DNA from: Patescibacteria group bacterium
GTDB lineage: Bacteria; Patescibacteriota; Minisyncoccia; Phycocordibacterales; UBA918
DNA: 49,287 nucleotides
Reading direction: 5' to 3'
Assembly: GCA_018608435.1 (NCBI GenBank)
Contig: JABAZV010000016.1
Coordinates: forward strand, 783-50,069
Below the pieces are notes generated by a model that saw only the letters and a list, made by a program, of their open reading frames with translations, was not told the DNA's origin and searched no databases. Positions 39,431-42,400 of this stretch are shown piece by piece; within the stretch, counting starts at the first letter, position 1, and each line of letters opens with the position of its first letter. A program made the translations under genes and the position numbers.

Positions 39431-40414
39431 ATGAAGTCAATCAAACTATCTCAAACTCCCTTAATACTTTTCGGCACCTGCTTAGCACTTTTGTCAGTCT
39501 TTGCACTAGCAGCTCTACCTCAACCAGCCTCAGCCCTCAGCTGCCTCAACCCGATCGAAATGATCCCTCTCTACGCAACTGACGACTCATACACAGTAGC
39601 TGTCATAGAAGCTGTTTCAATCGAAACCGAAGGCGACATGCACGATCAAGAAGTTATAGCGCAAGAAGTATTCAAAGGTGAACTAAGTACAAACGCAACA
39701 GTAAGTTTTGCTTATGATGAAACTTGGAGCTACCTATGTGCTGGTACGCCAGCTGAAGCAGGAAGCAAAGCGCTGTACGTAATACGAGACAACCAAGTTG
39801 TTCAAGTGTTTACACCAGACTCTGAATTTTCTCAAACGCTATCTACAGAAATTGAAGTTCCAATTTACAAACCAGTTGATAAGCCGGTTATGGAACCCGA
39901 GACTCCAAGCCAAACAGAAATTGATGAAGAAGAGAGAAAAGGTCTCATGAAGCAAATCATTGTTTTACTGCAAAAACTCGTAATTCTGCTCAGCGGATCA
40001 ATTGAAGAAATTAAAGTAGCAGAGCCGCTGGAAAGCTATGTCGGAATGACCACTATCGAAGCAGTAGCCTACGCTGATAGTAAGGATGAATTATTCAGAG
40101 TAGTAGAAATAGATGGCGTGCCGCAAGCAGTAACTGAAGATTACCGAATCGGCCGCATCAACGCCGCTGTTGAAAACAATGTTGTAACTTCATACACCGT
40201 CGAAGGTCAAGAAACTGAAGATACTCTCGAATACATCGGACTCACCGCAACCGAAGCAGAAGATCTAGCCGAGGCTAATGACGTAATGTTTAGAGTCGGT
40301 ATGATCGACGACGAACCACTCCTGGTCACCATGGACTACGTTCCAGGCCGCATCACCGCCACAATCAAAAACGATATTGTGGTTGACTATACGGTTGAAG
40401 GAGGAGATGTGTAA
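39431..40414 (+). CDS. Secreted protein with N-terminal NTR/TIMP-like region and two tandem I78-inhibitor-like domains
   Basis: Signal peptide; ESYVGMTTIEAVAYADSKDELFRVVEIDGVPQAVTEDYRIGRINAAVENNVVTSYTVEG and LEYIGLTATEAEDLAEANDVMFRVGMIDDEPLLVTMDYVPGRITATIKNDIVVDYTVEG. Confidence 0.72.
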   Translation: MKSIKLSQTPLILFGTCLALLSVFALAALPQPASALSCLNPIEMIPLYATDDSYTVAVIEAVSIETEGDMHDQEVIAQEVFKGELSTNATVSFAYDETWSYLCAGTPAEAGSKALYVIRDNQVVQVFTPDSEFSQTLSTEIEVPIYKPVDKPVMEPETPSQTEIDEEERKGLMKQIIVLLQKLVILLSGSIEEIKVAEPLESYVGMTTIEAVAYADSKDELFRVVEIDGVPQAVTEDYRIGRINAAVENNVVTSYTVEGQETEDTLEYIGLTATEAEDLAEANDVMFRVGMIDDEPLLVTMDYVPGRITATIKNDIVVDYTVEGGDV

Positions 40415-40436
40415 ACATTCTTCGCACAAGTTAAAC

Positions 40437-40471
40437 AAAACCTCGAGATCATATCTCGAGGTTTTGTTTTT
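40437..40471 (+). terminator. Intrinsic terminator
   Basis: AAAACCTCGAGAT-CAT-ATCTCGAGGTTTT then GTTTTT; isolates the downstream E2/E1 operon. Confidence 0.93.
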
Positions 40472-40644: not shown

Positions 40645-41208
40645 ATGAACACAATCATAGAAAAAGTACTCATTGATTATTTGCACTTATGCCGAAACCC
40701 CTTACGTGGGAAGGCCGCTTTAACGGAAGAATTTTTTGCTCTATTGCAACTGCCTAAAGTTATACAAGTGATGGTCACTCGAGATAGTAAACTTTTAATC
40801 GTAGACACAACCGACATTCACATTCAAGATGATGATACTGGTATCTGGCACAATCTTGGCGGCTACTCAATCTTCATTGAACGCATTAATCTTGGTCTTC
40901 CTCCAGTTTGGAAAGTAAAATTCTTCTTCCTAAAAAACGAGGACGATACGACTGAAAATGAGGCAGACCAAGTAAATGATTATATCATTCATCCCCATAT
41001 CACCCTCGATGATGACGAAGACGGTGAAATAAATGGTCGATTATGTATTAGTCAAGGAGGTTTTCCGATTGACCAATCAATTAGAAGTGGTGATCTAGCA
41101 ACAGCTGTATCATTATTACTTGAAATTTTAGGCACGTATCATAAAGATGTTCCGTACCGTCCATTGAGTGCGTGGCCAACTGTCTGCATTAATGAGAAGG
41201 CATCATGA
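40645..41208 (+). CDS. Prokaryotic E2 (ubiquitin-conjugating enzyme/UBC-like) family protein
   Basis: HPHITLDDDEDGEINGRLCISQGG matches E2-type HP[NH]..(x)n..G.(L/I)C with candidate catalytic Cys (codon at 41044-41046); followed by helical DLATAVSLLLEILG; GGAG ribosome-binding site. Confidence 0.72.
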   Translation: MNTIIEKVLIDYLHLCRNPLRGKAALTEEFFALLQLPKVIQVMVTRDSKLLIVDTTDIHIQDDDTGIWHNLGGYSIFIERINLGLPPVWKVKFFFLKNEDDTTENEADQVNDYIIHPHITLDDDEDGEINGRLCISQGGFPIDQSIRSGDLATAVSLLLEILGTYHKDVPYRPLSAWPTVCINEKAS

Positions 41209-41879
41209 TTAAAACAATAAACATCATTGGCTGTGGCGCCATGGGAAGCCATATCGCCACCTCGATAATCCGTGATTTTAGCTGGGGAGGCAGACTAGTA
41301 CTTATTGACTTCGATAACTACGAACCAAAAAACCTGGCCAACCAGGCCATCGCACGTTCAGCAATCTCCAAACCAAAAGTGCACGGCCTGAAACATGAGC
41401 TACTGCGCATTAATAACAAAGCCTTAATTAACTGTATCAATCGTAAAGTGGACGGTAACAAATACATCAAGGAGGCACTGAGCGGACTAGTGGTTGTGTG
41501 CGTAGACTCGATGCAGGTTCGCTATGAAATCATGCACCACTTACTGCAAGCAAACCGTCGTGTGCAGTATGTGGTTGAAACGAGAGCTGACGCTGGGGCT
41601 GGTGTATCACACGCCTTTAATCCCAACAACAAAAACCAGTGCGACTGTTGGTGGCTATACTGGCATTCAGATAATGCTGCTTGGGATCGTCTTGGGTGCA
41701 ATCAGAGCAGTCCGATTCATAGCGCAATTCTCCACACCACTGCCTTGGCGAGTAGTCAGATTAGAGCACTACTCTATGAAGAATCTGGTAATTTTAGCAT
41801 TGCTGAAAACCGGTTGTGGATGGATTTCGATTTACGACAGCAAGGCTTCGAGAACTGGCCGCTTGACAAGCCTAGGTAA
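41205..41879 (+). CDS. ThiF/E1-like adenylyltransferase
   Basis: INIIGCGAMGSHIATSIIRDF; LVLIDFDNYEPKNLANQAIARSAISKPKVHGLKHELLRIN; VVVCVDSMQVRYEIM; ATGA overlap with the E2 ORF. Confidence 0.88.
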   Translation: MIKTINIIGCGAMGSHIATSIIRDFSWGGRLVLIDFDNYEPKNLANQAIARSAISKPKVHGLKHELLRINNKALINCINRKVDGNKYIKEALSGLVVVCVDSMQVRYEIMHHLLQANRRVQYVVETRADAGAGVSHAFNPNNKNQCDCWWLYWHSDNAAWDRLGCNQSSPIHSAILHTTALASSQIRALLYEESGNFSIAENRLWMDFDLRQQGFENWPLDKPR

Positions 41880-41940
41880 AATCACATACATTGTATATTG
41901 GTCAGCATGGTGCTGCCCGCCAACAACAAAGGAGTTCACT

Positions 41941-42132
41941 ATGTCGCTCGTACTCGAACGTAAGAAAGCTCAAGCTACAACAGCTAGTGCATCCGCTGTT
42001 ACTCAAGGCATAATTGCCGGCCTCACTGGCAGCACCACAACTACCAAAAACACTGTTGGTTCCAACAATACTTACCAACAACCTACACAGCGCACCTTTG
42101 TAGGACCAAGTCACGGTCCTCGCCTCGGCTAA
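41941..42132 (+). CDS. 63-aa low-complexity protein ending ...GPRLG; candidate modifier/substrate of the E1-E2 pair
   Basis: ATG preceded by AAAGGAG at good spacing; MSLVLERKKAQATTASASAVTQGIIAGLTGSTTTTKNTVGSNNTYQQPTQRTFVGPSHGPRLG; same strand, before the operon terminator. Confidence 0.75.
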   Translation: MSLVLERKKAQATTASASAVTQGIIAGLTGSTTTTKNTVGSNNTYQQPTQRTFVGPSHGPRLG

Positions 42133-42167: not shown

Positions 42168-42199
42168 GGCCCGAACACTAACACTGTTCGGGCCTTTTT
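42168..42199 (+). terminator. Intrinsic terminator of the E2-E1-small protein operon
   Basis: GGCCCGAACA-ctaacac-TGTTCGGGCC followed by TTTTT. Confidence 0.95.
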
Positions 42200-42400
42200 A
42201 ATTTTGTACATTACAGCGACATGGTGAACCAAACGAAAAGTTTTCATCAGGAAGTTTGGTCGCTGACCTTTTTCTTTAATCCTCATGTTAAATAACTACA
42301 AAAAACCAAGATCAGTTCCTCAAGCTCTTGAATGATCTTATTTCTATGAACCAAACACTTCTCCTTTGAAAATTTCGCAACGTTCCGATATACTCCAAGC

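Follow-up and report, generated by a model that had tools for sequence, protein, structure and literature searches.

What is the small protein that a patescibacterial genome encodes just behind two putative ubiquitin-pathway enzymes, and do those enzymes act on it? The gene lies in a stretch of 49,287 nucleotides (the window) from contig JABAZV010000016.1 of assembly GCA_018608435.1, a genome of 0.95 Mb that is 98% complete. An earlier note, made from the letters alone, had described at 41941..42132 a 63-aa open reading frame (ORF) with a native Leu-Gly C terminus, linked it to neighboring E1 and E2 genes, and asked if it could be a Pup-like tag or a ubiquitin-like modifier made in its mature form.

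Three adjacent genes in the window

The translation of 41941..42132 is identical to the one given earlier: it reads exactly MSLVLERKKAQATTASASAVTQGIIAGLTGSTTTTKNTVGSNNTYQQPTQRTFVGPSHGPRLG followed by a stop codon, is 63 aa long, and ends ...GPRLG, with the terminal Gly codon at 42127-42129. This gene, like every feature located here, is on the plus strand; on its translation and nine positional homologues (47-59 aa), it is read as the gene of a predicted disordered modifier. A Shine-Dalgarno sequence, AAAGGAG, is found at 41928..41934. Because the frame stays open upstream to 41524, inside the E1 gene, the start at 41941 is supported by this Shine-Dalgarno sequence and by homologue length. The 202-aa ORF that results from reading the whole open frame (41524-42132) overlaps E1 out of frame and is mechanical, not a likely product.

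The small protein has no Cys, three Lys, and a net charge of +5. The residues Gly, Ala, Pro, Ser, Thr, Asn, and Gln account for 67% of it and bulky residues for 21%, and it matches nothing in Pfam, NCBIfam, or PADLOC. No beta-grasp fold was found in it by family matching or in an AlphaFold model, which has a helix at 3-29 plus coil, no strands, and a pLDDT of 58 (low confidence). Because this model was built from one sequence, it simply fails to support a beta-grasp fold. The first impression that the protein is not obviously beta-grasp agrees with the lack of a beta-grasp signature.

The gene at 40645..41208 encodes a 187-aa protein that can be assigned as E2 (UBC)-like with good but not full confidence. 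Its predicted catalytic residue, Cys134, sits in the motif HPHI...GRLC and is invariant in all 12 aligned E2s, and the protein carries a WP motif (W177, P178). With a 12-member profile searched against the PDB, the best nine matches are UBE2L3-type E2s or a UBE2L3-derived design (best E 0.15), and the alignment to UBE2L3 falls on the active-site HPNIDEKGQVC. The Pfam search of the E2-like protein gave no significant match, UQ_con being matched by one member only (E 0.045). In a Foldseek search with the window E2 model (pLDDT 46), the top five matches are E2s (Atg10, CdnG-E2, Pex4; E 0.1-0.4). The match to known UBC proteins is only suggestive.

The E1 gene (41205..41879) overlaps the E2 stop by 4 nt and encodes a predicted E1/ThiF-type adenylating enzyme of 224 aa, which matches the ThiF family PF00899 at E 1.7e-15, above the family cut-off. 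Residues were compared on the basis of the MoeB adenylation residues listed in PMC12355090. The Gly loop (G9/G11/G14), D35, N43, and K58 are found in 36 of 36 homologues, D101 in 33, and the predicted catalytic Cys165 in 35, while the position of MoeB Arg73 is Asn in the window E1 and in 22 of the 36, beta-grasp relatives included.

The outer 5' limit of the cassette is the terminator of the upstream gene (40433..40469; 17-pair stem with a T tail), and a strong intrinsic terminator (42168..42204; hairpin z = -6.3) marks its end. Between these borders, a promoter-like TTGACA-18-TACATT for the small ORF (41863..41892) overlaps the end of E1.

Related loci and the tails of their small proteins

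E1 alignments and one E2 match yielded eleven E2-E1 loci like that of the window, all from a single taxonomic order; ten are complete, and the one in G1178 is cut by the contig end. The linkage of the small ORF to the enzymes, first proposed from a single locus, recurs as the order E2-E1-small in nine further complete operons, and loci were located via E1 or E2, never via the small ORF. The nearest relative with the operon is a Kaiserbacteria metagenome-assembled genome (G013, MFKO01000008). A search for the E2 showed it to be rare, with matches in 2 of 50 genomes of the family, and a single query in 392 genomes of the class returned the window only. A scan of viral contigs with a two-sequence E1 alignment found no relatives.

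In family f8, the elements consist of E2, E1, and the small gene only, and five genomes (G1067, G949, G1142, G1180, and G980) carry them between mscL and comEC. The same site is empty in about a dozen sister genomes, where comEC lies 30-60 nt past mscL. The exact insertion of three genes, set against these empty sites, indicates that the small gene is part of the accessory unit.

Small ORFs were picked by eye from the Shine-Dalgarno-preceded ORFs after E1, a choice not blinded to the last residue. A Shine-Dalgarno sequence is seen in 10 of 10 loci. Frame 0 is the best match to host codon usage in 8 of 10 small ORFs, with those of G1067 and G1180 within noise. The sequences are barely alignable outside the tail. 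In the ten complete loci the small proteins are 47-63 aa long, Cys-free, and rich in Gly, Ala, Pro, Ser, and Thr, with 0-3 Lys. Their length and composition differ from those of beta-grasp comparators, with bulky hydrophobic residues at 12-23% versus 24-33%. Disorder scales give overlapping values for both sets, so the view that the small proteins are probably disordered is based on composition, length, and the missing fold and not on a dedicated predictor.

A terminal Gly is strongly favored among the small proteins but is not invariant. It ends seven of nine tails without the window's own and eight of ten with it; for the latter count the binomial P is about 1.5e-6, given that Gly makes up 12% of these proteins. 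The two exceptions were retained in the unblinded set. The tails ending in -LG belong to the window's E1 clade, namely the window itself, G013 (...RSVTLG), G1067 (...PRVSLG), G1124 (...FHPTLG), and G980 (...RKVDLG). Those ending in -DG or -TG belong to the other E1 clade, with G254 (...RAYLDG), G949 (...RKYVDG), and G1142 (...AAVYTG). The earlier note had named orthologous ORFs without a conserved C-terminal Gly as a refutation. Most orthologous loci conserve the Gly, and two of ten, G1156 (...ARPSLW) and G1180 (...LRESGA), lack it. These two tails are a real weakness of the modifier model and call for caution. In the G1156 ORF (L106, 2233-2403), TGG stands for GGG, a single substitution away from the expected ...PSLG.

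In all ten loci, the 140 nt preceding the small ORF contain a sigma-70-type promoter-like site, versus 2-3 of 18 beta-grasp operons (Fisher P 2e-8), in which the ubiquitin-like (Ubl) gene usually starts a few tens of nt from E1. If a modifier has to outnumber its enzymes, separate transcription would suit it. The -35 box falls within a post-E1 hairpin in several loci (G980, G1156, and G1180). The idea that the 5' UTR of the small gene forms a conserved hairpin was rejected, as the structure is clear in G980 alone (z -4.1) and most loci do no better than shuffles.

The same taxonomic order and class also contain related operons in which a true beta-grasp modifier adjoins E1, most of them with a JAB gene. 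These include E2-JAB-E1-Ubl operons (L008-L010, L048, L078-L080, and L083), JAB-E1-Ubl operons (L049, L054, and L055), and JAB-less E2-E1-Ubl operons (L050, L052, L053, L057, L109, L115, and L151). In the tree of E1 sequences, those of the small-protein loci fall with L009, L010, L048, and L006, an E2-JAB-E1-Ubl operon from Bdellovibrionales, outside the phylum. Support is good (97/93) for the clade of seven that includes the window, and the tree tests neither show nor reject a single origin of all eleven small-protein E1s (p-AU 0.23). In the nearest relatives, L006, L010, and L048, a beta-grasp Ubl gene occupies the position of the small gene. Taken together with the tree, this gene order indicates that the small protein fills the slot of the Ubl gene.

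Iyer, Burroughs, and Aravind (2006) described five operon types with an E1-like protein and a JAB, the JAB being fused to E1 or adjacent to it, and with beta-grasp proteins as standalone modifiers (PMC1779556). The cassette resembles the bacterial E2-JAB-E1-Ubl operons (types 6a-6e, PMC1779556; BilABCD; Bub) in having homologous E1 and E2-like enzymes and a modifier gene in the operon, which in the nearest relatives adjoins E1. It differs in having no JAB and in a candidate modifier that is short, poor in bulky residues, and free of a beta-grasp signature, with its own promoter-like site and with Gly mostly as the last encoded residue.

JAB, PafA, and the mature end

The earlier observation that a JAB gene is missing extends from the operon to nearly the whole set of genomes. 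PF14464 alone was dropped as a test for JAB, since it barely detects the divergent JABs of the comparators, from which a dedicated profile was built. This profile found none in the 11 small-protein genomes and recovered five of five controls, two of these outside the profile. The single PF14464 match, in G1142, is about 270 nt from a separate E1 locus (L116). This 1.1-Mb genome carries three E1 systems: the small-protein cassette (L105), a beta-grasp system with a long E2 (L115), and one with a neighboring JAB (L116).

A strict rule by which lack of a JAB means a mature Gly was rejected: the JAB-less E2-E1-Ubl operons with a 460-aa E2 (L050-L052 and L057) end in Ser, and several JAB operons (L078-L081) already encode the terminal Gly. 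The modifiers ending in Ser are those of the JAB-less E1-Ubl operons L050, L051, L052, L057, L109, L115, and L013, with tails such as ..RPKSS, ..RPQGS, ..VAGS, and ..ARGS. In the Ser-tail operons whose upstream part is covered (all but L051), a long E2-like protein of about 300-475 aa precedes E1. The JAB-less E2-E1 loci L053 (G1110, 797-2372) and L151 (G1204, 933-2378) have a 68-75-aa modifier ending ...NG, and by their predicted products these form another JAB-less type in which the Gly is encoded in mature form. The L053 modifier is weakly ThiS-like.

The small protein shares with Pup (and UBact) a size of about 64 aa, predicted disorder, and a putative C-terminal attachment end. The cassette would use E1 and E2-like enzymes and no PafA ligase, and its tails of LG, DG, TG, GA, or LW lack the C-terminal Gly-Gly-Glu/Gln of Pup. 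PafA (PF03136) was absent from 11 of 11 genomes, with the positive control found. Membership in the Pup family, one way to read the earlier term Pup-like, is not supported: because PafA is absent, the candidate modifier is not Pup.

A candidate conjugation cassette and its alternatives

The reading that we consider likely is a three-gene conjugation cassette in which E1 would adenylate a short, largely disordered modifier at its ready C-terminal Gly and the E2 would transfer it to a target. The modifier would be expressed separately from the enzymes and probably more abundantly, taken up as a thioester on Cys165 of E1, handed to Cys134 of the E2-like protein, and passed to an amine or other nucleophile on the target. 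A JAB maturation protease would not be needed because the modifier would be made with its Gly already exposed. This amounts to a ubiquitin-like scheme in which a beta-grasp modifier may have been swapped for a Pup-like disordered tag. Gene order, the promoter-like site, the borders, the E1 and E2 active-site residues, the tail bias, and the absence of JAB and PafA all rest on sequence; from these we infer adenylation, the thioester relay, conjugation, the target, and the purpose.

As in the UFM1/UBA5/UFC1 and Atg8/Atg12 systems, the E1 is small with its Cys in the adenylation domain, and the mature modifier ends in a single Gly; UFM1 ends in Val-Gly (PMC12355090). The UFM1, Atg8, and Atg12 modifiers are beta-grasp folds, unlike the small protein of the cassette. 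The single Gly would also suit an Atg8-like system in which E1 and E2 join the peptide to a lipid or small molecule and not to a protein. The E2 model's best, if weak, fold matches are Atg10-type E2s, but they come from a low-confidence model, Atg10 is itself a protein-conjugating E2, and nothing else points to lipids, which leaves this option quite improbable. A sulfur carrier of the ThiS, MoaD, or Urm1 kind, its C-terminal Gly converted by E1 into a thiocarboxylate, would be in keeping with the ThiF/MoeB superfamily of the E1, to which the ThiF models are nearest in NCBIfam. It is exceedingly improbable for a protein with neither a beta-grasp fold nor a Gly-Gly tail, encoded beside an E2-like partner instead of rhodanese or cofactor-synthesis genes.

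Microcin C offers another ThiF-family enzyme with a short peptide substrate, and the E1 of the cassette might likewise adenylate a peptide C terminus, the E2-like protein would be a tailoring partner, and the resulting modified peptide might be secreted or toxic. MccB is the best PDB match of both the window E1 (E 4e-6) and the E1 profile (E 4e-15), and the peptides are short and diverse in an accessory, patchily distributed module. UBA1-type E1s match the profile nearly as well, though, and the nearest E1 relatives pair with JAB and beta-grasp Ubls, not peptides. Each E1 comes with an E2-like partner protein, encoded separately and invariant at its Cys, which MccA/MccB lacks, and the peptide is 47-63 aa instead of a heptamer. 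MccA ends in Asn, whereas the tails here favor Gly, and the three-gene cassette contains no exporter or self-immunity gene. A microcin-like role is on balance unlikely. It is very improbable that E1 and E2 serve an unlinked modifier, the small ORF having no relation to them or its transcript acting as a small RNA. The promoter-like site, the terminator, and the barely alignable low-complexity sequences would allow it, but the small gene moves with E2-E1 as one cassette that is absent from empty sites, has a ribosome-binding site in every complete locus and frame-0 codon preference in most, and carries a tail motif that tracks the E1 clade.

To our knowledge, all known modifiers passed from E1 to E2 are beta-grasp proteins. 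We lean slightly toward the conjugation cassette being a distinct class of tagging system in Patescibacteria, in which E1 and E2 would conjugate an intrinsically disordered, non-beta-grasp modifier made in mature form, a cascade without the ubiquitin fold. In the open-access literature, no description was found of a short disordered peptide paired with E2 and E1 in a cassette that lacks JAB, which is weak evidence. If this is true, E1 and E2 would recognize a tail and not a fold, a disordered substrate of 47-63 aa would suffice, and the ubiquitin and Pup strategies would be joined in one system. It would also give a phylum in which few regulatory systems have been characterized a compact, testable set of three proteins, and a clean model for modifier exchange within an otherwise conserved cascade.

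The patchy distribution and fixed insertion site fit an accessory role for the cassette, for example, in defense or stress response. Upstream of the cassette in the window, 39431-40414 encodes a 327-aa protein that looks secreted and, in its C-terminal part, weakly resembles two families of serine-protease inhibitors, I78 and potato inhibitor I (E about 0.2). The mscL-comEC gap of family f8 may be an insertion hot spot, because two genomes hold other single genes there: a 152-aa gene in G1167 (L129, 1931-2389) and a 163-aa gene in G1141 (L143, 1861-2352) that by eye is HAD phosphatase-like.
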